64,000 nt of DNA from CAVQYV01 sp963718295 [NCBI: uncultured Methylomirabilota bacterium]. GTDB taxonomy: Bacteria; Methylomirabilota; Methylomirabilia; CAVQYV01. Location: the NCBI GenBank assembly GCA_963718295.1, contig CAVQYV010000005.1, forward strand, positions 1-64,000, given 5' to 3'. Every line of letters begins with the position of its first letter. Position 1 is the stretch's first letter. The notes beneath the pieces are model-generated. The model did no database searches, was not told where the DNA came from, and worked only from the letters and a program-made list of their open reading frames with translations. A program made the position numbers and the translations under genes. Shown piece by piece: positions 1 through 28,189 of this stretch.

Positions 1-1131
1 CCGGCGTGGCCCGGTTGAAGTCGATCCGCGCCGCCAGTTCCTTGGCGTAGGCTTTCGAGGTCAGGCCGGCGACCGGCGCCTTGACGAAATCGGGATCGCC
101 CAGATGCTCGCTGCGGTCGGCGTAGGCCCGCTTCATCGCCTCGGCCAGGCGGTGGATCGTGGCGGCGCTGTTGTGACCGAGTTCGCCGAGCGGCCAGGTT
201 TCCAGGAGGTTGAGCAGTCTGGATGAGATGGACGCCGCCGGAACTGGGCGGCGGCATCGACACGATCTCGTAACCCCGATAGGTCCCCCGCACCGGCGCG
301 CGGACCATCGCCCGGTAATTTTTGAGGTCGGCCGCCGCGATCGCCCCCTGGTGGGCTTTCATGTCGGCGACCAGCTTTTGCGCGATCTCGCCCTCGTAGA
401 ACGCCGAGGGACCCTGTTCGGCGATCAGCCTGAGCGAGGCGGCCAGCTCCGGCTGGACCAGCGTCTCGCCGGGCCGATAGGCGGCGCCGTCGGCCTTGAA
501 AAACACCTTCCGGCTGGCCGGCCACGGCGCCATCTGCTCGCGCGCTTCCTGGAGCGAACGCGCCAGTTCGGGGCCGACCGGAAAGCCTTGCTCGGCCAGA
601 CGGATCGCCGGTTCGACCAGCGACCGCCACGGCAAGCGGCCGTGACGCTGGTGGGCCAGCGCCAGTCCGGCCACCGTGCCCGGCACGCCGGCCGCCTGAT
701 GGCTGTGGCGGAGGCGGGTTTCGTCCACCTCGCCCTGCTCGTTCAGATAAAAATCCCGGCCGACGGCGGCGGGCGCGGTTTCCCGGAAATCGATGGCCTC
801 GCTCTGCGTGCGCGGCGTCGTGGACCAGCAGGAAGCCGCCGCCGCCCAGATTGCCGGCCTGCGGCAGCGTGACCGCCAGGGCGAAGCCGACCGCCACCGC
901 CGCGTCGGTGGCGGTGCCGCCCTGCTGGAGGAGGGCCCGCCCGACCTGGCTGGCCAGGGCCTCCTGGGCGACCACCAGGCCCTGGCGGGCGTAGACCGGA
1001 TGGATGCGGTCGCGGGCGTCGGGGAGCGCGAGTTCGGTTCGCCCCGCGCCGGACCCCAACAGGAGCAGCAGGGCGATCCCGCCGGCGAGGAGCCGGGCCA
1101 GCGCGCGGACGGACGAGGGCCAGGGGGGCAT
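1..1131 (-). pseudogene. ggt: Gamma-glutamyltranspeptidase, frameshifted and cut by left edge
   Basis: Periplasmic Ntn hydrolase that transfers or hydrolyses gamma-glutamyl groups of glutathione. The start at 1131 gives a hydrophobic signal segment followed by the family's N-terminal blocks HPVYARQGLVVAQEALAS, GGTATDAAVAVGFALAV and GNLGGGGFLLV. The frame breaks near 815; the next frame continues with DFRETAPAAV through MPPPSSGGVHLIQ, then breaks again near 223. The third frame gives GDPDFVKAPVAGLTS at the left edge. The catalytic Thr and small subunit lie outside the window. Both breaks look like single-base indels, so the native gene may be intact. Family assignment is firm; the functional state is unknown. 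Confidence 0.8.
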
Positions 1132-1289
1132 GGGAATCTCCAGCGGTGGGGCCAGCAGGGTCGGGGGTGAGGGTCTACGACGCTTCGTTCGACCCGTCCA
1201 TCCTCTCACCGGCCCGGTATCCACCGGCACGAACGGGGGATGGACGCCGAACTCGCCGGCGGCCGAACTTCCGCGCCCGCTTGGCGCGC

Positions 1290-2045
1290 TCAGCCCACCG
1301 GCCACTGGCGCATGACCACCACGCTGGGCTTGGGCAAGGTGGCGGCGAACGGGTTGAACCACGCGGACGGCCGGGCGAGCTCGTCCGGCGTCGGCACGCG
1401 GAACGCCTGCTGTCCCAGCGGAGCGCCGTAATCGACCTCGATGGCCCGGATCGCGCCCGGGTCGCGCAGGTACAGGATCTGGGCGGACGGCCGGTTGCCG
1501 TCCGGGGCTTCCGCGCCCGGCAGCGTCAGCACGACCGCCTTCAGGTGGGCGAACTCCGGCTCCGCCAGCACCCGCTCCAGCAGCTCGGGATGCCGGCCGA
1601 TTTCGGCGAACCGCAGGGGGGTTTCGGGCGGATCGTCGCAGCCGGCCTCCCGCAGGTGGCGCAGCGCGCGCGCCTGCAGCCGCTCGGCCGTCTCCCGGAC
1701 GCAGTGGATGCGGTTCAGCCAGAGCACCTCCACCTCGGGCAACCGCGCGTGGGGCAGCGCGCGGCTGGCCTGCTGGACGCGGGCGAACGCGGCGAACACC
1801 CGCGCGCCGATGCCGTAGTAGCCCTGCCGCTGCGCCCGCTGCAAGGCTTGCCCCATCAGCCCCGGCGCGTTGTTGCCGTAAAACAGGGTGAGGCCGCCGG
1901 CGGGCAACCGCAGGCCCGGGTTGGGGACCGGCGCGTCCGGCAAGGGCGCCTCGACCGGGGGCGGCGTCCGGGCCGGCAGAAACAGCCCGGTCAGCAGGGT
2001 GGGGGAAAAGGCGCGCAGCGGCGCACCGGATGGGGTTTCGTTCAT
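1290..2045 (-). CDS. Hypothetical protein, about 251 aa
   Basis: I do not recognise this family. The start at 2045 (MNETPSG) is chosen because upstream sequence in the same frame is arginine-rich and looks non-coding. The product has no signal peptide or membrane segment. It contains a proline-rich stretch near residues 25-50 and a predicted mixed alpha/beta body (LTLFYGNNAPGLMGQAL, then VLWLNRIHCVRETAERLQA). It is divergent from the HTH gene at 2221 and lies downstream of ggt on the same strand. Codon third positions are strongly G/C, which supports a real gene. Confidence 0.55.
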   Translation of the reverse strand: MNETPSGAPLRAFSPTLLTGLFLPARTPPPVEAPLPDAPVPNPGLRLPAGGLTLFYGNNAPGLMGQALQRAQRQGYYGIGARVFAAFARVQQASRALPHARLPEVEVLWLNRIHCVRETAERLQARALRHLREAGCDDPPETPLRFAEIGRHPELLERVLAEPEFAHLKAVVLTLPGAEAPDGNRPSAQILYLRDPGAIRAIEVDYGAPLGQQAFRVPTPDELARPSAWFNPFAATLPKPSVVVMRQWPVG

Positions 2046-2059
2046 GCTATGATTATACG

Positions 2060-2073
2060 CGCTTTCGAAAGCG
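2060..2073. promoter_or_regulatory. 14-bp perfect palindrome in divergent intergenic region
   Basis: The sequence CGCTTTCGAAAGCG lies between the divergent genes starting at 2045 and 2221. Its position suits an operator, perhaps for the neighbouring HTH proteins, but that is inference only. No clear -35/-10 pair was recognised around it. Confidence 0.3.
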
Positions 2074-2220
2074 GTTTTCCAACGGGGGCCACACCGCGCC
2101 CCGGCGCGCCGCTCGCGGCCCCGCAACGCGCCGCCCAACGGCTCCAAACGCCCGCGCCGCCGCGGCGAGCGCCCGCTCGGTCTCGACATAGATAGCAGGA
2201 TAACAAAACCGATCACCGCC

Positions 2221-2914
2221 ATGCCTTCGCCGCTCCCCGATTCCGCCGCGCTGCACCTCGATCTGGACGACCGCCCGGTCTGCGGGCAGGACCTGCTGTT
2301 CCTCCAGCAGTGGTACGAGCTGTCCCGCCTGGACATGTGCTACCTCCTGGGCCTCAGCGACCTCAAATGGTGCACCTACACCCACCCGGACCGCGTCCGG
2401 GAGCCGCTGGGCGATCCGGCCGTGGCGCTGCTGGTCTGGCTGCTGGTGCGCTATCCCGAGACGTTCTTCCTGCCCGCCTTCCCCTCGCCCCGCGAGGTCT
2501 ACGCCCTCTACGACCGGCTGGCCGGGCAAAGCGGGCCGGCCGCGCGGGCGGACGCGCCGCTTTATCTCGGCAAAACCGCCTTCGGCCTGCTGCTGGGGCG
2601 GGAGATCGGCAGCGCGACCCGCTGGCTGGCGCCCGCCGGCTCGCCCGCGATCGCGCCCACCGTCGCCCGGCTGCTGTTCGTCTTCCAGAACCGGCTTCGG
2701 ACCCACGGGGTGGTCGGGCTGGAGGAGTGGGTGGCCGACGCGCGGCGGGAGGCCGAGGCGCGCGGCCTGGACTTGCGGGGCAAAATGACCTCGTGGTTTC
2801 GCATGGACGCCCGCCAGCCGAAACGGGGCCGCCGCCCGCGAACCCGGAAAGCCCGGACCGCGCGCGCCGCCGATGCGCCGAGCGCGCCGGCGACCGGCGG
2901 ACCCGGCGGACTGA
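2221..2914 (+). CDS. Dual helix-turn-helix-like protein A (tandem paralogue)
   Basis: A protein of about 230 aa with two HTH-like segments: LSRLDMCYLLGLSDLKW at about residues 34-50 and TAFGLLLGREIGSATRW further on. It ends in a basic Arg/Lys tail. The same layout recurs in the next gene (DLLFL-QW, CYLLG, GR-S-RW, RLL-V), so the two are paralogues. The spacing resembles XRE-type HTHs, but I cannot name a family. The frame has no stop at the expected end and reads on through gene B; a TGA at 2912-2914, one frame over and just before gene B's Shine-Dalgarno, is the likely true end. A one-base error is therefore suspected. Role unknown; regulation of the adjacent SUMF1/DGR genes is possible. Confidence 0.6.
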
Positions 2915-2926
2915 GGGGGCGGCGCG

Positions 2927-3610
2927 ATGGCGTTGACCTTGCCCGATCCCCGCCAGATCGAATCCCTGAAAGACCGCGCGCTGCGCGGCAAGGATTTGCT
3001 GTTCCTGCGGCAGTGGACCGGCCTCAGCATCGCGGACTGCTGCTATCTGCTGGGGATGCCGGTGGTGCGCTGGCACCATTACCAGAAGCATCCCGACCGC
3101 CTGCTCGACGACGCGGGCGTGGCGCTGTTGGCGCGGGCGCTGCTCACCCACCCCGAAGCCCATTTCCTGCCGCGCTTTCCCGAGTTCGCCGAGGTGGAGC
3201 CCGCCTTCCGCCGCGCGCTCCGGCAAAGCGCCCGCCCGCTGCCCGAGCCGGACACGGCGCTCGGCCTCGTGCTGGGGCGCGACCGGTCCAGCGTCGCGCG
3301 CTGGCGGCGGGGCACCGGCCAGCGGCCGATGCCGCCGCCGGTGCGCCGGCTGTTGCTGGTGCTGCACGCGGTGCTCGCCGACCACGGGGTGCCGGGGTTC
3401 GAGAGCCTGGTGGAGCGCGCCGCGCTGGAGGCTGCCGCGCGCGGTTTCGACCTGGATTCGCCGGCGATGATCACCTGGACGCGCCGCGCCCCCTACCGCC
3501 GCCGGCGCGACCGCCCGCCGGAATCGCCGCCCGGGCGGACCGGCCGCGCGGAGGCGGCGCACCGGCCCGCGCGGCTAAGCGGCGTGGTTGTTTCAACCGT
3601 TCCGGATTGA
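2927..3610 (+). CDS. Dual helix-turn-helix-like protein B (tandem paralogue)
   Basis: The 227-aa paralogue of the preceding gene. HTH-like segment 1 is GLSIADCCYLLGMPVVRWHH, and segment 2 is TALGLVLGRDRSSVARWRRG, followed by RPMPPPVRRLLLVL. The second segment ends in the RW motif expected of a recognition helix. The C-terminus is Arg/Pro-rich and probably disordered. A GAGGGGG Shine-Dalgarno precedes the ATG. The gene lies 56 bp upstream of the DGR target at 3667 on the same strand, so an operon is plausible. No enzymatic motif is visible. DNA binding is inferred from the helix patterns only. Confidence 0.65.
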   Translation: MALTLPDPRQIESLKDRALRGKDLLFLRQWTGLSIADCCYLLGMPVVRWHHYQKHPDRLLDDAGVALLARALLTHPEAHFLPRFPEFAEVEPAFRRALRQSARPLPEPDTALGLVLGRDRSSVARWRRGTGQRPMPPPVRRLLLVLHAVLADHGVPGFESLVERAALEAAARGFDLDSPAMITWTRRAPYRRRRDRPPESPPGRTGRAEAAHRPARLSGVVVSTVPD

Positions 3611-3666
3611 CGGGAGCGACGTTCGGGCTTGAAGCGGGCCTCCGGGGTCTCCCGCAAGGAGGGTTG

Positions 3667-4695
3667 ATGAAAATCCAGTTTTCCGGTTATCGGCGACCCC
3701 AACAGGTCCTGGCTTGGCTGGATCGGTTGCCGTTGCCTGTGGTGGTCGCGACCGGCGTCGTACTGGGGTGCGGCCTCGGCGGGGCGGGTTTCTATTATCT
3801 GGAAGCGCCGGGTTGGGCGGTGGCTTGGCTGGCGCTGTTCGCCGCGCTCGGCTGGCTCGGCTATACGGCGGCGCCGGTCTTCGACGAGCCCAACCCGATC
3901 CAGGCTTCGGCCAAGCCGGCCAAGCCGCGCCCGGTGCGGGACGGTTCCCTGCTGATGGTGGACCTGCCGGGCGGGCGGTTTCTGATGGGCTCGCCGGATA
4001 CGGACGACATGGCCCGCGACGACGAGAAGCCGCAACACGAAGTCACGGTCGCGCCCTTTCGCATCGCGATCACCCCGGTGACGGTGGAACTCTACCGGGC
4101 GATCATGCCGGAGTCCTCCACCGCCCAGTCGGAAGCCGAGGCGCGTTTGCCGGTCATGAATGTCACCTGGTTCGACGCCATCGAATTCTGCAACCGGCTG
4201 TCCGAACGGGCCGGCTATCGGCCTTGCTACTCGCAACGGTCTGGTCAGTGGCGCTGCGACTGGCGTGCGGATGGCTATCGGCTGCCGACCGAAGCCGAGT
4301 GGGAATACGCCTGCCGGGCGGGCACGACAACCCGTTATAGCTTTGGCGACGATCCCGCCGACCTCGACGGCCATGCCTGGTATGCCGGCAACGCGAATGA
4401 TGGTGTGCAGCCCGTAGCCACCAAGCGCGCCAATCCGTGGGGGCTGTACGACCTGCACGGCAACGTCTGGGAATGGTGTTGGGATGGGTATGAGGCTTAT
4501 TCACCGCAACCCGCCCGGAATCCACGCGGCCCAGAGAAGGCCGCATCCGGGAGGCGGGTTTTGCGCGGCGGTTCGTTCGGCGGCCCGCCCGCGAACCTGC
4601 GCTCCGCGGGCCGGGGCGGCGGCGCCCCGAGGCGGGTGCGGGGACCGGCGGGTTTCGGTGCGTGCGGGTCCCGCCCCAGCAGGTTGACCGATTGA
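3667..4695 (+). CDS. DGR target 1: membrane-anchored SUMF1/FGE-fold protein carrying VR1
   Basis: A 342-aa protein with two hydrophobic segments (about 23-45 and 50-69), then a formylglycine-generating-enzyme (SUMF1, C-type-lectin-like) domain from about residue 92: GGRFLMGSPDTDD, MNVTWFDAIEFCNRLS, YRLPTEAEWEYACRAGT, NPWGLYDLHGNVWEWCWDG and RVLRGGSF. This fold is a common DGR display scaffold. AAGGAGGG precedes the ATG. The last 45 codons are the variable repeat. Relative to the template, VR1 lacks one base in a GAC codon, so the end reads GFGACGSRPS; restoring it gives the conserved GFRCVRVPPQQ and a stop a few bases downstream. It is probably a diversified surface binder rather than a sulfatase-maturing enzyme. 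Confidence 0.85.
   Translation: MKIQFSGYRRPQQVLAWLDRLPLPVVVATGVVLGCGLGGAGFYYLEAPGWAVAWLALFAALGWLGYTAAPVFDEPNPIQASAKPAKPRPVRDGSLLMVDLPGGRFLMGSPDTDDMARDDEKPQHEVTVAPFRIAITPVTVELYRAIMPESSTAQSEAEARLPVMNVTWFDAIEFCNRLSERAGYRPCYSQRSGQWRCDWRADGYRLPTEAEWEYACRAGTTTRYSFGDDPADLDGHAWYAGNANDGVQPVATKRANPWGLYDLHGNVWEWCWDGYEAYSPQPARNPRGPEKAASGRRVLRGGSFGGPPANLRSAGRGGGAPRRVRGPAGFGACGSRPSRLTD
4548..4680 (+). repeat. DGR variable repeat 1 (VR1)
   Basis: Near-copy of the template repeat at 6086-6222 (opposite strand), placed at the 3' end of the SUMF1 gene. In my hand alignment about 17 of 20 substitutions between the conserved left arm and the GGGTTTCGG right arm fall on template adenines, mostly A to G with some A to C. 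In addition one adenine is deleted, and the template lacks one C of a CCC run. The right arm resembles an initiation-of-mutagenic-homing site: VR1 and VR2 agree with each other and differ from the template by T/G and A/G. Confidence 0.85.
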
Positions 4696-4710
4696 GTGAT
4701 TGATTTATTG

Positions 4711-4744
4711 AAAAAAACCGGCGCGCCAGCGCCGGTCGTTTTTG
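4711..4744. terminator. Intrinsic terminator / post-VR hairpin
   Basis: ACCGGCGC-GCCA-GCGCCGGT forms an 8-bp stem flanked by A7 on the left and TCGTTTTT on the right, so it could work on both strands between the convergent target 1 and reverse transcriptase. A GC-rich hairpin just after a VR is also a known cis feature of some DGRs that aids retrohoming. Confidence 0.75.
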
Positions 4745-4849
4745 TTTGACGAATAGACAATGTTGTTCAAACGAACGAACATTTGTTTGTTTGTTTGCCA
4801 TTGGGCAAGCCGGTTTGTTGCTGGATGGGAAACGGCAACTCGACAGGGC

Positions 4850-5839
4850 TTACGGAAAGACCAGCAAGCCCCGATAAGAGCGAACGGTACGAATCAGGGA
4901 CTCCTCACCCTTGGCAGCGGCCGTCCGCAGGTGGTGACGCAGGTGGCGGCGCAGTTTGCGGCTGGGAGCGATACCCGCCTGACTGATCCGGTAGCCCACG
5001 AAGACCGCCGGAGTCCGCGTCGGTTCGACGGTCAGCCGTTTGGGGTTGAGCCGAAGCGTGCGCTGCTCGTGCAACCAGTCGGCAACCGCTGTCCGCGCTT
5101 CGAGCAACTGCGTTTTTTCCTCGGCGAACAGCACCAGATCGTCCATGTAGCGCAGATAACCGGGGATTTTCAGCTCCCGCTTGATGAAGTGATCCAAGCC
5201 GTCCAGGAAAAAATTGCCGCACCATTGGCTGAACCAGGAACCGAGCGGTAACCCTTGCCCGCGGGGCGGACAGCGTTCCCCCAACAACCGCGCGGCCAGG
5301 CGGCTGCGATAGACCTGGTCGCCCGCAGCGACGATCGCTTGCAACAGCGCGAGGGTGTCGTCATCGCGCACGCGCTCGGCGAACAACGCCAGCAATCGCG
5401 GGTGGCGGATGCTCGGAAAATAGGCGCTGATGTCCAGATGCAGGCGCCAGGCATGGCGGCGCTGGCAGCGCAAAATGTACAGCGCCGCACGGTGGGGGCC
5501 GCGCCCGTGGCCGGCGGTGAACGATTGCTCAATATAGCGCCGCTCGAAGACCGGACCGATCTCGCGCAACAGGGCGTGATGCAAGACTCGGTCGCGCACG
5601 GCCGGCGCGGCGATCAAGCGGGTTTTGGGATCGCGAATGCCGTGCAGCCGCCAGGGCGAGGGCTGATAGCGGTGTTCCACCAATTCCCGCCGCAACGCCA
5701 GCAGATGGCGGTCGCAATCGATCTCGAACGTTGCAACCGCCGGGCTGCGCCGCTTGCCGCGCCGGCAATCGAGCCAGCCCTGCCACAACGCCTCCAGGCT
5801 GGCGAGGCGCTGATAGCTGCCCGATTTCAGCGTCCGCAT
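4850..5839 (-). CDS. DGR-type reverse transcriptase
   Basis: A 329-aa reverse transcriptase. It copies the template RNA with adenine-specific infidelity and supplies cDNA for replacing VR sequences. Visible motifs are HLDISAYFPSI at about 134-144 (first catalytic Asp), GLPLGSWFSQWCGN at about 196-209, and the YMDD box at 231-234. The GSxxSQ form at the motif where retrons and group II introns usually have QGxxxSP is characteristic of DGR enzymes. The length fits the family, and there is no maturase or endonuclease domain. The gene lies downstream of Avd and the TR on the same strand, the canonical DGR order. The ATG at 5839 gives MRTLKSGSYQ; a second MRTLK start-like copy lies upstream across a palindromic repeat. 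Confidence 0.92.
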   Translation of the reverse strand: MRTLKSGSYQRLASLEALWQGWLDCRRGKRRSPAVATFEIDCDRHLLALRRELVEHRYQPSPWRLHGIRDPKTRLIAAPAVRDRVLHHALLREIGPVFERRYIEQSFTAGHGRGPHRAALYILRCQRRHAWRLHLDISAYFPSIRHPRLLALFAERVRDDDTLALLQAIVAAGDQVYRSRLAARLLGERCPPRGQGLPLGSWFSQWCGNFFLDGLDHFIKRELKIPGYLRYMDDLVLFAEEKTQLLEARTAVADWLHEQRTLRLNPKRLTVEPTRTPAVFVGYRISQAGIAPSRKLRRHLRHHLRTAAAKGEESLIRTVRSYRGLLVFP

Positions 5840-5860
5840 GGCGCTGGCACTCCCAGATTT

Positions 5861-5942
5861 TGTAGGTTGGGTTAAGGCCTTCGGCCTAACCCAACATATT
5901 GATTTTGTTGGGTTACGCGCTGCGCGCTAACCCAACCTACAA
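5861..5942. repeat. REP-like double palindrome between TR and RT
   Basis: Two nested inverted repeats: GTTGGGTTAAGGCC-TTC-GGCCTAACCCAAC and GTTGGGTTACGCGC...TAACCCAAC, enclosed by TGTAGGTTGGG/CCCAACCTACA. It resembles the REP-type elements common in gammaproteobacterial intergenic DNA. It sits in the spacer between the template repeat and the reverse transcriptase, the part of a DGR transcript needed for priming in studied systems, and is flanked by two similar MRTLK-coding sequences. Confidence 0.8.
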
Positions 5943-6085
5943 TCAATTTGAATTTGAGTGTTCGCATGGCGCAATACCCGTTGGTCGAGGGGAGGTCCGC
6001 CCGGACGGTCGCTAGGCTACTGGAACGGGCGGACCGGGATGCGGGCCGAATGGCCCTGACAGGCGCTGCATGGCGCGCGGGGCGG

Positions 6086-6222
6086 CATGTTGGGGCGGGA
6101 CACGCACGCACCGAAACCCGTTGTTCCTGTTCCTGTTCTCGGGGTCGTCGTCGTCCCGGTTCGCGGAGCGCAGGTTCGCGGGCGGTTGTCGAACGAACCG
6201 CCGCGCAAAACCCGCCTCCCGG
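6086..6222 (-). repeat. DGR template repeat (TR)
   Basis: Non-coding template lying between Avd and the reverse transcriptase. Read in the target frame (after restoring one C in a CC run), it would encode FDNPPANLRSANRDDDD and then PENRNRNNGFRCVRVPPQH. It is dense in AAC and GAC codons, the usual TR design in which adenine mutagenesis cannot create stops. The left arm (CCGGGAGGCGGGTTTT) and right arm (GGGTTTCGGTGCGTGCG) match both variable repeats. The right end differs from them at two bases, as expected of IMH* versus IMH. Confidence 0.88.
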
Positions 6223-6243
6223 TTTTTCGCGCCTGTCGGCCCA

Positions 6244-6585
6244 TTATTCTGCGCGGCTTTGCGCTTTGCGCCAACCACCCAGTTGGCGGCCGATGGCATC
6301 GGTTTGCGCCAGAGCGTAGTGGACTTGTTGGGCGCTGAGCAATTCCGTTTCCATGGCCAGTCGCAACCGCAACCGCAATTGGATCAGGAGGAGGTCGGCG
6401 TCTTGCAGGGCGTCGTCGCGATCGATGTTTTTCAGCGCGAGGGTGATGGCGTCCAACAACCGCAATGCGCCGTTGGCCAGGGATTGCGCCAACGGATCGT
6501 GCGGCGCGGCGCGCGTTTTCTTCAGCAGCCAGACGCTGAAATCCCAGGTGGCGGTAAAGATCGGCGCGCGTTGATACTGCGACAT
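6244..6585 (-). CDS. avd: DGR accessory variability determinant, Avd-like four-helix bundle
   Basis: A 113-aa, highly helical protein that in studied DGRs forms a basic pentameric barrel binding the reverse transcriptase and template RNA. The sequence shows the family's repeating helices: FTATWDFSVWLLKKT, LANGALRLLDAITLALKN, ADLLLIQLRLRLRLAMETEL and the C-terminal block AIGRQLGGWRKAQ. The start at 6585 (MSQYQR) is preferred; an in-frame TTG further upstream would add about 16 arginine-rich residues. The gene lies directly upstream of the TR, the classical position. Confidence 0.82.
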   Translation of the reverse strand: MSQYQRAPIFTATWDFSVWLLKKTRAAPHDPLAQSLANGALRLLDAITLALKNIDRDDALQDADLLLIQLRLRLRLAMETELLSAQQVHYALAQTDAIGRQLGGWRKAQSRAE

Positions 6586-6633
6586 CGAGCCGGTCACGCG
6601 GTGGCGACAGCGCCAGAGGGAGCGGTGATTCAA

Positions 6634-7180
6634 CCCCCCCGCCGCGCTCGCTGCGTCGCAACAGGCCGGCGAGCGCCGCCATCAGATTCTGCTCGATGGC
6701 GTCCAGCAGTGGTTCGTTGCCGTTCGTCGCCCGCAGCCACAGCTCCATCGCCGCCAGACTGGCGGCATCGCGGGCCGCGCGATAGGCGGCGGTCTTTTCC
6801 CGTCGGTCGTAACGATGGCAACCGACGGCCAATTGATCGAGACAGACGCGCATCTGTGCCGTCGCCGGTTCCCATTCCGCGCCGCGCGCCACCAGCTCGC
6901 GATAAATCGGCGTGGCCAGTTGGACCGCCTTGAGATCGCCCAAAGCGTAGCGACGAGTCTTGCCGGTCGGCGTCAGCGCGTCTTCGATGGCGGCTTTGAG
7001 GTGGGCTTCCCGCTGGCTGGCGCGTTGCTGGACGGCCTCGTCCGCCGTCAGGCCGGCGCGTTCGATCACCCAGCGGCCGCCCACTTTTTGCGCCGGCAAC
7101 CGGCCCTGTTCGATCATGTACACCACTTGCCGGCGGGTTTTCCCCAGCAAATCGGCGGCTTGTTGTAACGATAATTGCAT
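6634..7180 (-). CDS. Excisionase-like HTH protein with helical C-terminal domain, DGR-linked
   Basis: About 182 aa. The N-terminus (LQQAADLLGKTRRQVVYMIE, then GRLPAQKVGGRWVIER) is a typical MerR/excisionase-like winged HTH (HTH_17 type). Residues of about 75-180 are helical (YALGDLKAVQLATPIYRELV, AAYRAARDAASLAAMELWL) with no catalytic motif. The frame runs into a G7 tract at 6634-6640; adding one G gives an immediate TGA and is the likely true end, otherwise the frame reads on through avd. It lies between target 2 and avd on the same strand, so it may be a regulator or an accessory factor of the retroelement. Function not known. Confidence 0.65.
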
Positions 7181-7273
7181 GGCGTCGTTCGATACTTCAC
7201 AAACAAACAGACAAAAGAGCCATCAATTGACCAAGAATAAACAAAATCACACAAATCGACAAATGTACGCGCG

Positions 7274-7288
7274 CCGCGCTTCGCGCGG
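7274..7288. other. GC-rich hairpin downstream of VR2
   Basis: CCGCGC-TTC-GCGCGG forms a perfect 6-bp stem about 30 bp past the stop of target 2. The equivalent position after VR1 also has a GC hairpin. In DGRs such as that of Bordetella phage, a hairpin or cruciform just after the VR aids retrohoming. There is no strong T tract at this one. Confidence 0.5.
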
Positions 7289-7317
7289 GGATTCAAAAAA
7301 TCAATGAAATCAATGGT

Positions 7318-8104
7318 TCAATGCTGGGGCGGGACCCGCACGCACCGAAACCCGAGGAGCCAGCCCAGTTCCTGCTCCTACACGGGGCCGCCGCCGAACC
7401 GGAGCGCGGAGCGCAGGAGCCCGGGCGGGAAGTCGAACGAACCGCCGCGTAAAACCCGCCCCCCGGTTTTTGTCGATTCCTCAGGATCGACAAAGGTTCC
7501 AGCTTGGTAGTCGCCGTACTCGTCCCGCACCCATTCCCAGACGTTGCCGTGCAGGTCGTACAAGCCCAGCGGGTTTGGCAGTTTCTGCTTCACTTCATGG
7601 GCTTGATAATTGGAATTCTTATCAAACCAGGCATAACGGCCAAGCTGGCTTTCATCCTCCCCGAACGACCAGCGGGTGCGGCTGCCGCCACGGGCGGCGT
7701 ATTCCCACTGTGCCTCGGTGGGCAAATCGCCGCCGATCCGCTGGCAAAAGAGCGGGCCTGTTCCCAATCTACTTCCACAACCGGCTGGTCATTTCGCGCC
7801 TTGTGGTCCGAAATCACCTGGGCGTACTGCCGGTTGGTGGTCTCGGTGGCGGCGATCTGGAAGGCCGACAAGGCGACTACGCGCGGCGGTTCGACGATTT
7901 CATTCTCTTCCGCCATCGGTTCGCCTTTGACCGAGCCCATGGTGAAGGTGCCCGGACAAATGGAGACCCACTCGATGCCGTTTTCCGTCGTGGTCGCCGG
8001 CCCGCCGTGGATACGTGCATCCCCGCTGTTCTGAATACGCGCCACGGCAACGCGGCCTGCGCGACCGGTTTCGTGCCCAAAAATCGGCGGCGCGGTTTGG
8101 TCAT
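7318..8104 (-). pseudogene. DGR target 2: SUMF1/FGE-fold protein carrying VR2, broken
   Basis: SUMF1-domain protein in the canonical target position of the DGR. Segments are found in successive frames: GIEWVSICPGTFTMGS and VEVDWEQARSF, a shift in a T4 run near 7755, then LPTEAQWEYAARGG, NPLGLYDLHGNVWEW and GGRVLRGGSFDFPP. A TAG at 7378-7380 interrupts the variable repeat, and the same frame then resumes ELGWLLGFRCVRVPPQH and stops. The best start is 8104 (MTKPRRRFLG, preceded by AAGGTGG), which is out of frame with the domain, so another indel near 8,000-8,060 is likely. RRRFLG resembles a twin-arginine signal but the following hydrophobic stretch is weak. Native state uncertain because indels are common throughout the window. 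Confidence 0.75.
7322..7466 (-). repeat. DGR variable repeat 2 (VR2)
   Basis: Shares the left arm CGGGTTTTACGCGGCGGTTC (one base different from the TR) and the right arm GGGTTTCGGTGCGTGCGGGT with VR1. Several template AAC/GAC codons are changed at adenines (AAC to TTC or CTC, GAC to GGC), while CTGCGCTCCGCG is untouched. VR2 is 9 bases longer than the TR in its second half, and a few changes are not at adenines. It may therefore derive from an earlier template version. Confidence 0.75.
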
Positions 8105-8216
8105 GTATCTTCCACCTTTCACAGTCAGCGTCCCGCAATCCTCTCGGTGGCGGTTTTCTTCTTGGCCGGTATGCTCCTCCTGAGATCGGTCCAGGGAGGC
8201 TGCCCCACCGCAAGCC

Positions 8217-8252
8217 AAAAAGGCGCGAAGTAGTCCTTCTTCGCGCCTTTTT
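8217..8252. terminator. Bidirectional intrinsic terminator after hcp
   Basis: Perfect 14-bp stem AAAAAGGCGCGAAG / CTTCGCGCCTTTTT with an 8-base loop, A-rich on one side and T-rich on the other. It ends the hcp transcript and could stop plus-strand transcription. It marks the approximate left limit of the Desulfobacterota-like sequence. Confidence 0.85.
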
Positions 8253-8285
8253 CTCGACTTCTCTGTGACTGAGACTGAGATCCGG

Positions 8286-9929
8286 TTATCCCAGGATGGC
8301 CTTCAAATCCGCATCCGGAGTGCTGATGGGTGCAATGTTGAACTGCTCCACCAGGAACTTCAGCACATTGGGGGTGACAAAGGCGGGCAGAGACGGGCCC
8401 AGCCGGATGTTCTTGATCCCCAGATGAAGGAGCGACAGGAGGATGACCACCGCCTTCTGTTCATACCAGGAGAGGATCAGCGAGAGGGGAAGGTCATTCA
8501 CCCCCACCTTGAACGCCCCCGCGAGGGCCAGGGCAATCTGCACCGCCGAATAAGCGTCGTTGCACTGTCCCACGTCCAGGAGCCTGGGGATGCCCCCAAT
8601 GTCTCCAAAGTCGAGCTTGTTGAAGCGGTATTTGCCGCAGGCCAGGGTGAGGATCACCGAGTCCGGGGGGGCCTTTTCCGCCAGCTCCGTGTAGTAGTTG
8701 CGGCCAGACTTGGCCCCGTCACAGCCGCCGATCAGGAAGAAATGCCGGATGGCTCCGCCCTTCACCGCTTCGATCACCTTGTCGGCCACGCTCAGGACCG
8801 CTTGATGACCGAAGCCGACCATGATCTCTTTGCCCGGGGCCTCGGGAAAGCCCGGAAGCTCCAGGGCCTTCTGGATGAGGGGGCTGAAGTCCCGGTTAAA
8901 GATGTGGCGCACCCCGGGCCAGGCCACCAGGCCGGAGGTGAAGATGTTGTCCATGTAGCTTCCCGCGGGCTTCTGGATACAGTTGGTGGTCATGAGGATG
9001 GCGCCGGGGAACTGGGCAAACTCCTTCTGCTGATCCTGCCAGGCGCCGCCATAATTTCCAGCCAGGTGACTGTATTTCTTGAGCCCCGGATAGCCATGGG
9101 CCGGCAGCATCTCTCCATGGGTATAGACGTAGATCCCCTTTCCCTCGGTCTGCTTGAGAAGCTCCTCCAGATCGAGGAGATCATGGCCGGAGATGAGGAT
9201 GGCCTTTCCCGCCTTGGTACCGAGGTTGACCCGGGTGGGGACCGGGTGGCCAAAACGATTTGTGTGGGCCTGGCTCAACAGCTCCATGGTCTTCAGATTG
9301 AGCCTTCCACACTCCATGGCCAACTTGACGTAGTCCATCAGGCCCAGGGATTTATCGGCCGTGGCGGCCAGTGCCCGGTGGAGGAAGGCAAATATCTCCT
9401 CATCCTTGCTCCCCAGAATGGCTGCATGGTCGGCATAGGCAGCCATTCCCTTCAGGCCGTAGATCAGGATGGCAATGGCGGATCGGATATCCTCATTGTC
9501 ATGGAAGGTGAGGACCCCCTGCCCTTCGCCTTGCCGAACCAGACCGACCAGGCCGGCCGCAGGAACCCAGGCAGCCGGACCTTCCGTGATCTTGGGGGCA
9601 TCGGTGCCCTTCTTGGCCTTCCAGGCACCCTCGTAAAGGGATCGGGCGCGCTCTTTGAGGTCGTAGCATCTCTGCAGGAGGCCCTCCAGCCGGGCCGGGT
9701 CAAAGTTGACATTGGTTACCGTGCTGAACAGTCCCTCCTGGGTGAAGAGGTTGGTCTCCTCGTCCACCGCTGCGCCCAGCTGTCGCGCCTGATCGGCATA
9801 GATGGATAATCCCTTCAGGCCATAGACCAGAAGGTCCTGCAAGGCGGCCGCTTCCGGGCTTTTGCCGCACACCCCGGAAACGGTGCACCCAGTCTCTTTT
9901 GCCGTCTGCTCACATTGATTACAAAACAT
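8286..9929 (-). CDS. hcp: Hybrid-cluster protein (hydroxylamine / NO reductase)
   Basis: A 547-aa cytoplasmic iron-sulfur protein holding one cubane cluster and the hybrid 4Fe-2S-2O cluster. It reduces hydroxylamine in vitro and NO in vivo and takes part in nitrosative stress defence. The N-terminal cysteines C3, C6, C15 and C21 have the C-x2-C-x8-C-x5-C spacing of the Desulfovibrio-type [4Fe-4S] form rather than the enterobacterial [2Fe-2S] form. Hybrid-cluster ligand regions are visible downstream (IGGCDGAKSGRNYY, LACGKYRFNK, DVGQCNDAYSA). The start at 9929 (MFCNQCEQ) has AGGAAGA upstream. The gene stands alone, divergent from ccsA, and no hcr reductase gene is adjacent. Confidence 0.95.
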   Translation of the reverse strand: MFCNQCEQTAKETGCTVSGVCGKSPEAAALQDLLVYGLKGLSIYADQARQLGAAVDEETNLFTQEGLFSTVTNVNFDPARLEGLLQRCYDLKERARSLYEGAWKAKKGTDAPKITEGPAAWVPAAGLVGLVRQGEGQGVLTFHDNEDIRSAIAILIYGLKGMAAYADHAAILGSKDEEIFAFLHRALAATADKSLGLMDYVKLAMECGRLNLKTMELLSQAHTNRFGHPVPTRVNLGTKAGKAILISGHDLLDLEELLKQTEGKGIYVYTHGEMLPAHGYPGLKKYSHLAGNYGGAWQDQQKEFAQFPGAILMTTNCIQKPAGSYMDNIFTSGLVAWPGVRHIFNRDFSPLIQKALELPGFPEAPGKEIMVGFGHQAVLSVADKVIEAVKGGAIRHFFLIGGCDGAKSGRNYYTELAEKAPPDSVILTLACGKYRFNKLDFGDIGGIPRLLDVGQCNDAYSAVQIALALAGAFKVGVNDLPLSLILSWYEQKAVVILLSLLHLGIKNIRLGPSLPAFVTPNVLKFLVEQFNIAPISTPDADLKAILG

Positions 9930-10246
9930 GGTCTTCCTCCTTCTTCTTTCTTTTTCTGGATCTTTAGGATCGCAATCCCCTTGCCAATTGGGTCCATGAT
10001 GAATGGGTTGATCCACGCATTCATTTGCCAGGGATTGGTCGCAAGATTAACTCATTCCGGGAAAGAATCTATGACCTTCGTCATGTATCTTTTTTTTCCA
10101 TAGCCTTTAGCCTTTTGGATGTATAATATCAGAAGCGGGCTTTGAAGATCGCGGGAGCGGGCAGCCTTACGAGGCCGCCTCGATGTCCGGGATTCCCCGA
10201 TTCCCCATCCGCGCGAAGCTACTATGAGTACTGTAAGGAGCCAGAA
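9930..10246. promoter_or_regulatory. Divergent intergenic region hcp / ccsA with a TATAAT box
   Basis: No gene is supported here. A consensus TATAAT at 10122-10127 faces the ccsA-hemA pair, with only a weak -35 in the T-rich tract upstream (10090-10105). I could not identify an FNR/CRP or NsrR-like palindrome with confidence. Confidence 0.35.
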
Positions 10247-11068
10247 GTGGACCTTTATGTGCTGTTTTTCAAAGTCGCCCTCTTGGCCTATTTCCTGAGC
10301 AGCCTGGGATATGTCCTGTCACTCCTGAGCAAAAGAGCCATGGTGGCGGGAGCCTCCACCTGGATCCTTTTCTCTGCCTTCCTGATCCATACGGCCTCCC
10401 TGGTCCTTCGCTTCCTCATCACCGGCTATGCTCCAGTGGTCAATTTGTATGATGCCTTTTCCTTTTTTTCCTGGGCCGTGACCGGCATCTATCTTTTGCT
10501 GCAGCTGAAGACCCAGACCCGGGAGTTGGGCGCATTTGTGTCTCCGATGGCCTTCTTCATGATGATGATCGCATCCGCCCGATTGGGAAGCGAGGTGCGG
10601 ATACCGGCCATCTTGCAGGGAAGCCTGGTCCCGATTCATATTACCCTCTCCATCCTGGGGGAATCCCTCTTCGCGGTGTCCTGCCTTGCCGGCGCGATGT
10701 ATCTCCTTCAGGATCATTTCATCAAGCACCGGAGGGTGAACAGCCTCAGCAAAATCCTTCCTCCCCTTCGGGATCTCGACCGGATCAATCACTTTACCCT
10801 GCTTTGGGGATTTCCTTTGCTTACCCTCGGGGTGATCCTGGGGGTGATCTGGGCCCGGACCGCCTGGGGCGCCCACTGGCACTGGGACCCCAAGCAGGTG
10901 GGGACGCTCACCGTTTGGCTCCTCTATGGCTTCCTGTTGCATCAGAGGCTCGCCATCGGATGGAACGGCAGGAAGGCGGCCCTCTTTTCCATCGGCGCTT
11001 TCCTGGTTCTGCTTTTTGCCTTTTTCGGCATCAATCTCTTCTTCACCAAGGTCCATCGTTTTCTCTAA
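10247..11068 (+). CDS. CcsA/HemX-type cytochrome c assembly membrane protein
   Basis: A 273-aa integral membrane protein of the haem-handling CcsA/CcmC/CcmF (WWD) superfamily. About eight hydrophobic helices are visible, and the haem-binding tryptophan-rich loop is WGAHWHWDPKQVGTLTVWL near residue 220. A GTG start at 10247 is preferred because TAAGGAG precedes it and the protein begins straight into the first helix; an upstream in-frame ATG would add an unlikely Pro/Arg-rich tail. It lies 33 bp upstream of hemA, the arrangement called hemX-hemA in many bacteria. It could be a cytochrome c synthase subunit (system II) or a HemX regulator of glutamyl-tRNA reductase; the sequence alone does not decide. 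Confidence 0.85.
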   Translation: MDLYVLFFKVALLAYFLSSLGYVLSLLSKRAMVAGASTWILFSAFLIHTASLVLRFLITGYAPVVNLYDAFSFFSWAVTGIYLLLQLKTQTRELGAFVSPMAFFMMMIASARLGSEVRIPAILQGSLVPIHITLSILGESLFAVSCLAGAMYLLQDHFIKHRRVNSLSKILPPLRDLDRINHFTLLWGFPLLTLGVILGVIWARTAWGAHWHWDPKQVGTLTVWLLYGFLLHQRLAIGWNGRKAALFSIGAFLVLLFAFFGINLFFTKVHRFL

Positions 11069-11101
11069 CCCTTCGGGGCCTTGGGGGAATCCGGAAGGAA
11101 T

Positions 11102-12388
11102 ATGAATATCGTCCTGGTCGGCATGAATCATAACACGGCCCCCTTGGAGATCCGGGAGAGGCTTGCCCTTTGCTGGGGAGATGGGGCCAAGCCCTTATCG
11201 GAGATCATGAAGATCCCCCAGGTGGCCGAGGCCATGGTCCTTTCCACCTGCAACCGCCTGGAGATCCTGGCTCACGCGGATGAGCCCGCTGCCGCCATCG
11301 AGGGGCTCAAGGCCTTCCTCCTTTCTTCGGGGGTTTCTTCGGGGGGCCTGACCCTGACCCCAGATCAATTGGACCTTTGCCTTTACTTGCACCTTGACCA
11401 GGAGGCGGTCCGGCACCTCTTTCGGGTCGCCTCCAGCCTGGACTCGATGGTCATGGGAGAGCCTCAGATCCTGGGACAGGTGAAAGAGGCCTATCGAAGA
11501 TGCGTGGAGCAAAAAACCTCGGGGGTGATTTTGAACAGGCTGCTCCATCACGCCTTCCGGGCAGCGAAGCGGGTGAGGACCGAGACCGGGATCGCCAACA
11601 ACGCCGTATCGGTAAGCTTTGCGGCGGTGGAATTGGCCAAAACCATATTCGGGGACCTGGAAGGCAAGACCGTACTCCTGATCGGTGCAGGGGAGATGTC
11701 GGAGTTGGCAGCCCGGCATCTGCTCGGTCAGGGAGTCAGCCGGATCATCATCGCCAACCGGACCTTCGAGCGTGCAGTCCAGCTGGCGAAGGATTTCCAG
11801 GGAGCGGCGATCAGCCTTGATCGGCTGAGCGAGGCGCTGCGAGAGGCCGATATCGTGATTAGCTCGACGGGCGCCTCCGAGTATGTAGTCCGAGTCGACA
11901 TGATTACCGCAGCCTTGAGAAGGCGTAAGAATCGATTGCTCTTCTTGATCGATATCGCGGTGCCCCGGGACATCGATCCCGCGGCGGCCGAGGTCGATAA
12001 TGTCTACCTGTACAACATCGATGATCTTCAGGGGATCGTGGACGAGAATCTGAAGAGCCGGAGAAACGAGGCGGAGAAGGCAGAGCAGATTATTGTTGAG
12101 GAGGTCCTCAAGTTCGCCGGCTGGCTGAACACGCTGGAGGCCGTCCCCTCCATCGTCTCCCTTCGGAAGAAGATGCAGGAGATCGTGAGGGGCGAACTGG
12201 AGAAGTCATCCTCCTGGATGAAGAATCTAAGCGAGGAGGAGAGGGAAAATGTGGAAATCCTCGCGGCTTCCCTGCTGAACAAGATACTCCATGATCCCAT
12301 CACGGCACTCAAGGAGGAATGCTGGAACGGAGCCGCAATCCCCTATATCGCCGCGGTCCGGAGACTGTTCAAGCTGGATGAGGAATGA
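11102..12388 (+). CDS. hemA: Glutamyl-tRNA reductase
   Basis: NADPH-dependent reduction of glutamyl-tRNA to glutamate-1-semialdehyde, the first step of C5-pathway tetrapyrrole synthesis. The 428-aa length is usual. The catalytic cysteine is C50 in STCNRLE. The substrate-binding region reads HLFRVASSLDSMVMGEPQIL, the NADPH-binding loop is LLIGAGEMSELAARHL, and a C-terminal helical dimerisation domain follows. The start at 11102 (MNIVLVGMNH) is preceded by GGAAGGAA. It probably shares a transcript with the ccsA/hemX gene. No other hem genes follow; the next gene is convergent. Confidence 0.96.
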   Translation: MNIVLVGMNHNTAPLEIRERLALCWGDGAKPLSEIMKIPQVAEAMVLSTCNRLEILAHADEPAAAIEGLKAFLLSSGVSSGGLTLTPDQLDLCLYLHLDQEAVRHLFRVASSLDSMVMGEPQILGQVKEAYRRCVEQKTSGVILNRLLHHAFRAAKRVRTETGIANNAVSVSFAAVELAKTIFGDLEGKTVLLIGAGEMSELAARHLLGQGVSRIIIANRTFERAVQLAKDFQGAAISLDRLSEALREADIVISSTGASEYVVRVDMITAALRRRKNRLLFLIDIAVPRDIDPAAAEVDNVYLYNIDDLQGIVDENLKSRRNEAEKAEQIIVEEVLKFAGWLNTLEAVPSIVSLRKKMQEIVRGELEKSSSWMKNLSEEERENVEILAASLLNKILHDPITALKEECWNGAAIPYIAAVRRLFKLDEE

Positions 12389-20777: not shown

Positions 20778-22357
20778 ATGTACATCAGGAGAACATTATG
20801 GGCCGTGCTGGCGTTTGTGCTAGCGGCAACCGTGGCAAACGCAGCCGCCGCGGAAAAACCCAATATCCTCGTCATGTGGGGCGACGATATCGGAGTCCAC
20901 AACATCAGCGCCTAAAACCACGGCATCATGGGGTACCAGACTCCCAACATCGACCGGATCGCCCAGGAGGGTGCGCTCTTTACTGACTCCTATGCTCAGC
21001 AGTCCTGCACCGCGGGTCGCGCTTCGTTCATCCTGGGAGAACATCCGTTCCGCACGGGGCTTTTGACCATCGGCATGTCCGGATCTCCCCAGGCGATTCC
21101 TGACTGGGCGCCGACCATCGCCGACCTGCTCAAGGAGCAGGGGTACGTTACCGGCCAGTTCGGCAAGAATCACCTGGGTGACTGGGACCAGCACCTGCCG
21201 ACAATGCACGGGTTCGACGAGTTCCTCGGCAACCTCTATCACCTGAATGCCGAGGAGGAGCCGGAGACCTACTACTACCCGAAGGACCCTGAGTTCAAGA
21301 AGAAATACGGACCCCGGGGCGTCATCCACAGTTGGGCCCTGCCGGGGGGCAAGCAGAAGATCGAGGACACCGGTCCGCTCACCCAGAAGCGGATGGAGAC
21401 CGTCGACCAGGAGATCTTCGCGGCAGCCGACAAGTTCATCGCCAAGGCGGTGCAGGAGAAGAAGCCGTTCTTCGTCTGGTTCAACACCACCCGGATACAT
21501 GTCTGGACCCACCTCAAGAAAGAATCCATGGGGGTTACCGGCATCGGTCTCTATCCCGACGGCATGGTCGAGCATGACGCCATGGTCGGAGACCTGTTGA
21601 AGAAGCTCGATACCCTGGAGATCGCCGACACCACCATCGTCGTCTACGGAACCGACAACGGGGCGGAAACCGCCTCGTGGCCCGATGGCGGCATCACCCC
21701 GTTCCACGGCGAAAAGGGGACCACCTGGGAGGGGGGTTTCCGTGTGCCGATGATCGTCCGGTGGCCCGGGGTCCTCAAGCCGGGCACGAAGCACAACGAG
21801 ATCTTCTCCCAGGAAGACTGGCTGTCGACGCTGCTGGCGGCGGCCGGCGTGCCGGACGTGAAGGACAAGCTGAAACAGGGGTACCAGGCCAACGGCAAGA
21901 ACTTCAAGGTCTATTTGGACGGCTACAACTTCCTCCCGTTCTTCAAGGGCGAGGCCAAGAAAGCACCCCGTGAAGAGATCCTCTACTTCGGCCAGGGGGG
22001 CGAGCTCAACGCGGTCCGCTGGAATGATTGGAAGGTGAACTTTGCCGGCATCGACGGGAATATCGCCCTGGCACGCGCAAGGTGACGGGCTGGCCGCTGA
22101 TCGTGAACCTGAAGGCCGACCCCTATGAGAAGATGCCGTTCGAGTCGCAGATGTACATGCGGTGGTATGGGGACAACCTCTGGCTCTTCGTCCCTATCCA
22201 GCAGAAGGTCAAGGAATTTCTGCTGACCATCCCGGACTTCCCCTTCCAGGAGGGCGCCAGCCTGAACGCTGCGGGGATCAACTACCAGACCCTCAAGGCG
22301 GCGCAGGCCCTGAAGCGGCTCAAGGAGATCGAGAGCCTGGGAAGACCGAACAACTGA
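20778..22357 (+). pseudogene. Exported arylsulfatase A-like enzyme, interrupted by a stop and a frameshift
   Basis: Cys-type sulfatase that hydrolyses sulfate esters outside the cytoplasm. A signal peptide (residues 1-26) is followed by metal-site residues in NILVMWGDDIG. The formylglycine site is SCTAGRASFILG, a C-x-A-x-R variant of the usual C-x-P-x-R. Later blocks are GQFGKNHLGDWD, YGTDNGAETASWPDGG and RVPMIVRWPG. An in-frame TAA at 20913-20915 replaces the Tyr codon expected in NISAYNHGIMGY, and a shift near 22,075 separates NWKVNFAGIDGNIA from RKVTGWPLIVNLKADPYE. With both repaired the enzyme is full length (about 525 aa). A GGGAGGAA ribosome site is present. A real lesion or consensus error cannot be told apart here. 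Confidence 0.8.
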
Positions 22358-22419
22358 TCTGAAGCTCACCACTGCCCGGTCGAGCTTCTATGCCGGACCG
22401 AAGGAACCCTTGCTACCAA

Positions 22420-22459
22420 GCGCCCGTACCGTCAACCGGCGATCGGGCGCCGTTTTTTC
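22420..22459 (+). terminator. Intrinsic terminator after sulfatase 1
   Basis: Stem GCGCCCG / CGGGCGC (7 bp) with a 17-base loop, followed by CGTTTTTT. It separates the sulfatase from the multihaem cytochrome gene. Confidence 0.75.
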
Positions 22460-22553
22460 TTTCGTAACACGGAAGTTCGCGTTGTACGTGGTGCATGGCA
22501 GGTAATCGGGTCGGTGCTTCGGTAACGCCGTAAACGCTCATAGGAAGCAGATC

Positions 22554-24980: not shown

Positions 24981-25126
24981 GGCCTAGACGGTGAAAGTGA
25001 CGAGCCCCGTTCCGGGCCACGGAAGGAGACGAGAGGGCAGAACCCGCGAGGATGAGGGGATCGTTGAGTAGCAGAAGGAAAGTTGAGTGCAGGGTGATCG
25101 GTCAGGAAGAACAAGAGGAGGAGAAC

Positions 25127-25270
25127 ATGAAGCACACCATGAAAGTTTGTTCCCTGCTACTTGCAGCCATTGTGGGGCTCGTCGCGGTCGCAGGGCCGGC
25201 CGGCGCGGCGAAGAGCTTCGATTCGATCTACGAAGTGGCGAAGGCGCGAGGAATCGAGGAGGAGTTCTGA
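25127..25270 (+). CDS. Secreted peptide, 47 aa, overlapping sulfatase 2 start
   Basis: Begins with MKHTMKVCSLLLAAIVGLVA and a likely signal cleavage after AGPAGA, leaving a mature peptide of about 20 residues ending ARGIEEEF. A strong GAGGAGGAG ribosome site precedes it. Its stop overlaps the following ATG (ATGA), so translation is probably coupled to the sulfatase. I recognise no family. The short acidic mature part could be a real exported peptide or a leader that sets sulfatase expression. Confidence 0.55.
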   Translation: MKHTMKVCSLLLAAIVGLVAVAGPAGAAKSFDSIYEVAKARGIEEEF

Positions 25271-27145: not shown

Positions 27146-27208
27146 GCGTTGCCGATCATAGAACAAATCAGGAAGGACGGAAATCTCTTGAAAAACAACG
27201 GAGGTCCG

Positions 27209-28189
27209 ATGAAACCGGTTGCTTGGTTGGGATTGGTCGTCGCAATGATGCTCACCTTGGTCGCGCTTTGCCCACCGCAGACCCTGGCCCAGGTTCCGGC
27301 GCGCTTCTACTGGAAGACTCTGTCGAATGCCAATGCGGTGCCGCTCATCGTCGAGTCGTTGAGCGGCAACACGAACCCGTTCGACCCAGCTCACACCGTG
27401 ACGGCAGGAGCGGACGTCGACGCTATGTTGGCCCTGCCGGGTTATGCCCGCACCTTTTCTCTGTTCGATAGAGCGGCCATGGCTGCAATCATCCTGCCCA
27501 TGGGGCATGTCTCGGGCGATGTCACAGTGGCCGGCAGGACGTTCAACCAATCGGCCAACGGGTTCGGCGATCCGATGCTTGAGTTCGACATCAATGTCCT
27601 CGGCCCGCCGGCGCAGAAGAACCTCCCCGACGTCCTGCGCTATGAGCCGGGGTTCTCTGTCGACCTGCTCGCCGACCTGGCGCTGCCGATCGGCGAGTAC
27701 GACAGCGACCAGCCCCTGAATCTCGGGCAGAACCGCTGGTATGCGCGCTTGGGCGTGCCCATCATCTGGCAGCTCGGCCCGTGGGTTCCGGGCCGGCGCA
27801 CGACCTTGGAGTTCCTGCCCGCCGTGTGGTTCTTCGGAACCAACGACGACTATGTCGGGCAGACGTTGAAGACCGATCCATTGTTCCAGTTGGACGCGCA
27901 CGTGACGCGCGACCTGACCGAGCACTTCTGGGCGTCGCTCGACGCCACCTGGTACTACGGCGGCGAATCGAGCATCAACGGCGTCTCGGGGGAAAGACTC
28001 AACAACCTCGGCTTCGGACTCACGCTCGGGTACAACATCAACGACAACCTGAACCTCACCGTCGGCTACAAGTCGACCGTTAACGACAACGCTCCCGGGG
28101 ACCTTCGCATGGACAATTTCATGGTCTCGCTCGTGTACGGGTGGCACCCGCTCATCGAAGGCGTGCAACGGCTGAAGGGCGAGAAGTAG
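27209..28189 (+). CDS. Outer-membrane transporter-like beta-barrel (phenol-MetA-pathway type)
   Basis: A 326-aa protein. A cleavable signal peptide (MKPVAWLGLVVAMMLTLVAL, ending TLAQ) is followed by amphipathic beta strands with alternating aromatic residues, for example GFSVDLLADLALPIGEYD, RTTLEFLPAVWFFG, LDATWYYGG and GFGLTLGYNINDN. Strand composition and length match the MetA-pathway-of-phenol-degradation transporter family, often found beside exported hydrolases. A CGGAGGTCCG ribosome site supports the start. Its place after sulfatase 2 suggests passage of sulfated or aromatic substrates (inference). Confidence 0.75.
   Translation: MKPVAWLGLVVAMMLTLVALCPPQTLAQVPARFYWKTLSNANAVPLIVESLSGNTNPFDPAHTVTAGADVDAMLALPGYARTFSLFDRAAMAAIILPMGHVSGDVTVAGRTFNQSANGFGDPMLEFDINVLGPPAQKNLPDVLRYEPGFSVDLLADLALPIGEYDSDQPLNLGQNRWYARLGVPIIWQLGPWVPGRRTTLEFLPAVWFFGTNDDYVGQTLKTDPLFQLDAHVTRDLTEHFWASLDATWYYGGESSINGVSGERLNNLGFGLTLGYNINDNLNLTVGYKSTVNDNAPGDLRMDNFMVSLVYGWHPLIEGVQRLKGEK

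Follow-up and report, generated by a model that had tools for sequence, protein, structure and literature searches.

The region at approximately positions 3667-8094 of the window (the 64,000-nt stretch analysed here, from contig CAVQYV010000005.1 of an uncultured Methylomirabilota bacterium) is, judging from its sequence, a genuine diversity-generating retroelement (DGR), with a reverse transcriptase (RT), Avd, a template repeat (TR) and two target genes carrying FGE/SUMF1 domains. We put at roughly 0.78 the probability of the explanation as a whole, namely that a genuine DGR diversifies both targets, that these serve as sensors in a conflict system and that the cassette in the window is cut inside target 2 near position 8094. 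By analogy with the DGR of Bordetella phage BPP-1, the RT and Avd would copy the TR transcript, misreading its adenines, and the complementary DNA would overwrite the 3' ends of both FGE/SUMF1-domain targets, which lie on opposite strands. By analogy with systems described in passages of PMC10907252, the resulting pair of hypermutable sensors would most likely feed a MoxR-type conflict (defence) complex, because in related loci a MadB/MoxR-like AAA ATPase and another open reading frame (ORF) precede the longer target; the window cassette itself is broken inside target 2, either by a chimera of the assembly or by a rearrangement of the genome.

Read along the minus strand, in order of decreasing coordinate, the cassette runs from the 3' piece of target 2 (8094-7321) through a helix-turn-helix (HTH_17) gene (7180-~6653), avd (6585-6244) and the TR (6222-6088) to the RT (5839-4850); target 1 lies on the plus strand (3667-4695) and converges on the RT. 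The features are listed below, where VR denotes a variable repeat and L001 and L002 are the two closest loci found elsewhere.

3667-4695, plus strand: target 1, hydrophobic N-terminus and FGE/SUMF1 (C-type-lectin-like) domain, C-terminal VR1 (PF03781, FGE-sulfatase, E 7.8e-51)
4547-4681, plus strand: VR1, 17/23 TR adenines and 4/108 other bases changed, 2 gap columns
4717-4736, plus strand: GC-rich hairpin, 8-bp stem and 4-nt loop, 35 nt past VR1
4850-5839, minus strand: intact RT of 329 aa with LGSWFSQ and YMDD motifs (PF00078, RVT_1, E 8.3e-15)
6088-6222, minus strand: TR core, 22 adenines in codons, one base shorter than the VRs (TR/VR alignment)
6244-6585, minus strand: Avd, 113 aa (PF22296, bAvd, E 7.1e-11, above cut-off)
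~6653-7180, minus strand: HTH_17/excisionase-like domain and helical C-terminal half, frame continuing without a stop (PF12728, E 1.3e-9)
7274-7288, minus strand: GC-rich hairpin, 6-bp stem and 3-nt loop, 33 nt past VR2
7321-8094, minus strand: target 2, represented by a 3' fragment with the FGE/SUMF1 domain and two frame changes (FGE-sulfatase matched in two different frames; alignment in three frames to residues 888-1138 of the L002 protein, 1139 aa)
7322-7466, minus strand: VR2, 18/29 TR adenines and 4/108 other bases changed, 10 gap columns
8095-8213, no strand: junction zone between DGR-type and hcp-side sequence, with no similarity to target 2 of L001 or L002 past it

Across six TR/VR pairs from the window and the two relatives, the VR differs from the TR at 89 of 153 template adenines versus 10 of 637 other bases, and the bias is significant in each of the six (p <= 4e-10). 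In the window, 35/52 template adenines and 8/216 other template bases differ, with 12 gap columns whose placement in the tail of the alignment is uncertain; by Fisher test, the repeats lie far beyond chance (p 5.2e-13 for VR1 and 1.2e-11 for VR2). The relatives are cleaner, with 54/101 adenines versus 2/421 other bases changed and zero gaps. When the direction of the comparison was reversed as a control, just 2 of the 66 adenines in the VRs differed from the TR. The adenine bias, which the first-pass annotation had named as a check, is thus present throughout, and the profile matches and the TR/VR comparison together confirm its proposal of a DGR that has an Avd and uses a single TR for two SUMF1-fold targets lying on opposite strands.

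The 22 codon adenines of the window TR allow for ~6e12 protein variants per VR, and A-to-N change turns none of its codons into a stop. The TR is one base short relative to both VRs, and VR1 is short by one further base; VR2 contains an in-frame TAG and is ~9 bases longer than the TR. The extra length of VR2 sits in an AACAGG-rich tail, as if the TR that gave rise to it had contained additional repeat units. Since A-to-N change of the TR codons cannot create them, the VR2 TAG and the indels are sequencing faults or ordinary mutations rather than DGR products. The last 33 bases are identical between VR1 and VR2, and the TR differs there at two positions, which we take to correspond to the initiation of mutagenic homing (IMH)/IMH* pair of the BPP-1 literature.

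Phage DGRs have a hairpin downstream of the VR, with a 7-10 bp stem and a GRNA loop. The hairpin past VR1 is a possible target-recognition hairpin or else the terminator of the target 1 gene. Stems of at least 6 bp were found 33-40 nt beyond 6/7 VRs, stems of at least 7 bp beyond 5/7, and stems also occur 33-36 nt beyond 2/3 TRs; the loops do not match GRNA, and stems of at least 7 bp are present in 10-13% of random windows. An Rfam search of window positions 1-12000 gave no match.

Because the best NCBIfam match of the RT was a group II model, well under its cut-off, the placement of the RT was examined by a tree of 28 RTs, which held no retrons and four group II rows, two of them verified as group II. 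The four group II rows split off at 100/100, and the window RT falls among the other 24, including those of BPP-1 and Bacillus phage BalMu-1; the RT placement proposed as a check in the first-pass annotation therefore comes out on the DGR side. Within this set, the window, L001 and L002 RTs cluster at 100/100 on a long stem (1.02). The closest solved structure is 8ub7_A (E 4.3e-26, compared with 1.5e-16 for a group II RT), and chain E of 8ub7 carries the title of a DGR ribonucleoprotein. All three clustered RTs have the LGSWFSQ motif, and most other DGR rows have IGNLTSQ or a similar sequence. The RTs with GSWFSQ form a less familiar sub-lineage, present in genomes of different phyla in our collection.

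The Avd assignment draws on further profiles (NCBIfam DivGenRetAVD, E 2.8e-13, below cut-off; PHROG Avd, E 9.9e-11) and on a C-terminal IG..LGxW in common with BPP-1 Avd. The HTH protein, 79% identical in L002 and 70% in L001, matches the RT in its degree of conservation. Its C-terminal half was clearly recognised in 1 of 198 genomes of the L002-host family, the one carrying this RT, with marginal matches in three more (E 0.003-0.009), and the whole protein had no relatives in viral contigs and none in plasmids. The protein, with its predicted four-helix bundle in the C-terminal half, is a clade-bound, less familiar component. The AlphaFold model is weak (mean predicted local distance difference test score, pLDDT, 61.4; predicted template modelling score, pTM, 0.35) and yielded nothing at E 0.001 with Foldseek. 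The top three VIA-align matches (2gsc, Z 9.2; 2rld, Z 8.9; 8ub7 chain E, Z 8.6) are two S23-family proteins and a DGR Avd, so the model hints at an S23/Avd-like bundle. However, plant pectin methylesterase inhibitors reach Z 8.5, a level that helical bundles attain by chance, and sequence profile searches linking the HTH protein to Avd found nothing; with a weak model, a kinship with Avd is not established.

L001 and L002 were the two close loci recovered in a scan of contigs from 84,980 species. L002 belongs to Candidatus Accumulibacter conexus (genome G002; RT 78% identical) and L001 to a metagenome-assembled genome named Proteobacteria (G001; RT 73% identical). A third relative, L052 (G225, genus Accumulibacter), is ended by a contig edge and matches the RT at 81% over residues 226-329 and target 1 at 70%. 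L001, L002 and the visible portion of L052 share the gene order of the window, with target 1 facing the RT. Transfer of the cassette between phyla is probable, because the phylum of the L001 genome, with 5 genomes in the collection, differs from that of L002, the order of which alone has 399. Among 199 genomes of the G002 family no close RT was found besides that of G002; among the 28 genomes of its genus G225 also carries one; and the 399 genomes of its order gave one RT match at E <=1e-50. Plasmid RT matches were all <60% identical.

G001 and G002 hold several further DGR-like RTs, and G001 has three more Avd matches above cut-off, indicating multiple DGRs per genome. Between the RT and the TR, the window carries ~109 bases (5845-5953) in which a pair of short palindromes is nested within a longer inverted repeat, resembling a miniature inverted-repeat transposable element; L002 has 17 bases at this site.

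Target 1 is 70, 66 and 58% identical to the targets 1 of L052, L002 and L001, respectively. These three end in GFRCVRVPPQ and the window protein in GFGACGSRPS, with frame shifts within VR1. Both window targets carry PF03781 and, judging by sequence, have their VR at the C-terminus. The arrangement of target 1 on the opposite strand, present in both complete relatives, is not exotic; its conservation is less familiar. The first-pass annotation held that VR1 might have to be reached by inverted homing, a need removed by passages of PMC3240598, in which inversion of the BPP-1 target had no marked effect on homing; surveys, as covered in parts of PMC6642488, know of multiple VRs and inverted cassettes. 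Moreover, the opposite-strand VR1 of L001 and L002 differs from the TR at 28/52 adenines and 1/218 other bases, similar to the 26/49 adenines changed in VR2; this gives no support to unequal rates, which saturation could mask.

A 2026 study in E. coli reports, in the parts of PMC12875486 on orientation, effects of up to 44-fold, favouring targets that run with replication, and the conserved opposite orientation is therefore worth testing. A joint reading, by which selection keeps the opposite orientation through replication-direction-dependent editing and the HTH protein serves as a fifth component that is related to Avd, binds DNA and steers homing or expression, strikes us as a long shot. 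If true, one TR and one RT would supply the cell with two sensors, one changing fast and the other slowly, which may sit in different compartments.

The first-pass annotation also called the cassette complete. We consider the locus to be of a type already described in bacteria that form clumps, Accumulibacter among them, and well formed as a type, but its copy in the window is incomplete, because target 2 is truncated. Full-length target 2 has 1139 aa in L002 and 1146 aa in L001, with the SUMF1 domain in the last quarter; tblastn of the whole proteins against all 64 kb retrieved only residues 888-1138 (L002, in three frames) or 902-1145 (L001, in two frames). Neither the AAA ATPase nor the ORF (ORF1) that precede target 2 in the relatives matched any part of the window at E 0.01. 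Nucleotide similarity to the relatives' target 2 ends near 8094, beyond which lie a terminator-like repeat and then hcp, starting at 8286 (Prismane, E 5e-170). Because the front of target 2 and the AAA ATPase are absent from all 64 kb, a chimera or a rearrangement must lie near 8094-8213, and we do not choose between the two; as the cut falls inside target 2, the ATPase half is missing from the window cassette. In a plasmid search, the best match of the right-part hcp was from Pelobacter propionicus (70%), and a Prismane family search over 4 genomes of another group gave no match. A left-flank protein (1293-2192) matched 0 of 198 genomes of the L002-host family, which says nothing on the origin of the left flank. 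More generally, a DGR target that is cut at a contig join can be mistaken for a short, exported protein.

The putative function comes from the complete relatives. Both L001 and L002 combine a short and a long C-type lectin (CLec) target with a MoxR-like gene, the long target being preceded by the AAA ATPase and ORF1; the window holds the DGR half only. Passages of PMC10907252 describe MoxR-linked, DGR-diversified conflict systems and name Accumulibacter as having multiple related DGRs. The layout given there places a long target downstream of a MoxR ATPase and includes a second, short target, with an HTH gene in DGR 8, and the variable domains are proposed to sense invaders; VMAP ternary systems with DGR links are described in parts of PMC7159879. 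In L002, the ATPase matches MadB (E 9.1e-16); in the same search, which covered the long target of L002 alone, residues 1-79 of target 2 match the vWA protein MadC. The ATPase and long target of the relatives are compatible with a MoxR-vWA-like couple. Several results weigh against our explanation: the MadB and MadC matches are both under curated cut-offs, that to MadC reaching just E 0.0016; Pfam at E up to 5 found no vWA, VMAP, CHAT or other effector in the target 2 front or ORF1; PADLOC yielded weak ATPase matches only; and the window copy may be inactive, because of the 8/216 non-adenine changes and 12 gap columns between its TR and VRs. A structure model of the middle of the long target, the candidate site of a hidden vWA domain, was unusable (mean pLDDT 45.2).

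Three other accounts were weighed. It is doubtful that the window copy is a decaying, inactive DGR whose indels, VR2 stop and lost target 2 front are real mutations. Decay would suit target 2, which has two frame changes and a TAG within ~0.77 kb; the TAG cannot come from TR codons via A-to-N change, and the base deficit of the TR would shift the frame of every new VR. However, the reading frames of the RT, Avd and HTH protein are uninterrupted and well conserved, the base missing from the TR is retained in both VRs, and other window genes also have broken frames, which suggests indel-prone sequencing. Equally doubtful is a real junction near 8.1 kb, with a foreign DGR fragment inserted in, or rearranged with, an hcp/hemA genome. 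Such events have a precedent in the transposon-driven rearrangement at DGR loci of other bacteria (in section 7 of PMC10907252), and the tetranucleotide contrast is modest (correlations of 0.32-0.53 across the junction versus 0.34-0.62 within the right part) and not decisive. Yet no integrase, tRNA or flanking repeat was found at the join, the G+C content drops from left to right (~0.72 at the left end, 0.60-0.66 across the DGR, 0.53-0.60 in most of the right part), and the left block correlates best with L002 (0.63) and L001 (0.58).

Quite improbable, in our judgement, is the first-pass proposal that the DGR diversifies a membrane-bound and an exported binder, which as surface or secreted proteins would display variable ligand-binding sites. 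FGE/C-type-lectin-like targets with C-terminal VRs would suit display, as would the hydrophobic N-terminus of target 1, where one segment exceeds the hydropathy threshold in the window, L052, L002 and L001 (4/4). However, L001 and L002 have no exported short target: their target 2 is ~1140 aa long, has two (L001) or three (L002) segments above threshold, predicted as membrane helices, and lies beside the AAA ATPase. In addition, a second, weaker hydrophobic stretch just behind the first, seen by eye, would bring the C-terminus of target 1 back to the cytoplasm, so that an N-terminal hairpin may leave its lectin domain there, and three helices might place that of target 2 in the periplasm, both topologies being tentative readings of hydropathy and inspection by eye. 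We favour a genuine DGR with putative conflict sensors, cut near 8094 in the window.

Elsewhere in the window, two neighbouring plus-strand ORFs (2221-2940 and 2927-3610) are paralogues, 42-44% identical; the latter has a weak HTH_31 match below cut-off and the former matched no family. At 28666-33519, two adjacent TolB-like, cytochrome-type proteins share near-identical long stretches, and the second is broken by a frame change. The G+C content rises to 0.61-0.66 within 21001-28000, over sulfatase and multihaem-type genes, a possible further change of origin.

The locus joins a small group of cellular DGRs diversifying putative immune sensors, with an RT of a sub-lineage in which GSWFSQ replaces the usual GN/GS-LTSQ motif, and its fixed opposite target orientation offers a test case, ready in nature, for the reported link of DGR editing rate to the direction of replication. 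It resembles the BPP-1 DGR (L040) in the avd-TR-RT order, the upstream target, the adenine-directed TR/VR differences, the C-type-lectin-fold target and the related RT and Avd, whereas BPP-1 has one target (a phage tail protein), the RT motif IGSLTSQ and no HTH gene. In the BalMu-1 DGR (L041), a SUMF1-family target, Avd and RT likewise stand in a row, but that element is phage-borne, with one target seen and an RT ~32% identical. As in the VMAP/MoxR-vWA ternary conflict systems described in parts of PMC7159879, the relatives appear to couple a MoxR-type ATPase to a DGR-diversified FGS-domain protein; they differ in having no recognised vWA core or VMAP and only a weak MadC-like N-terminus. In gene layout, the closest likeness is to DGR 8/clade 5A and DGR 9 of Thiohalocapsa PB-PSB1 (passages of PMC10907252), which have short and long targets with C-terminal CLec domains. 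The passages of that paper on DGR loci make no mention of the opposite-strand order seen here; they call the DGR 8 targets cytoplasmic, unlike the present targets with their hydrophobic segments, and describe DGR 9 targets that span the membrane with several membrane regions.

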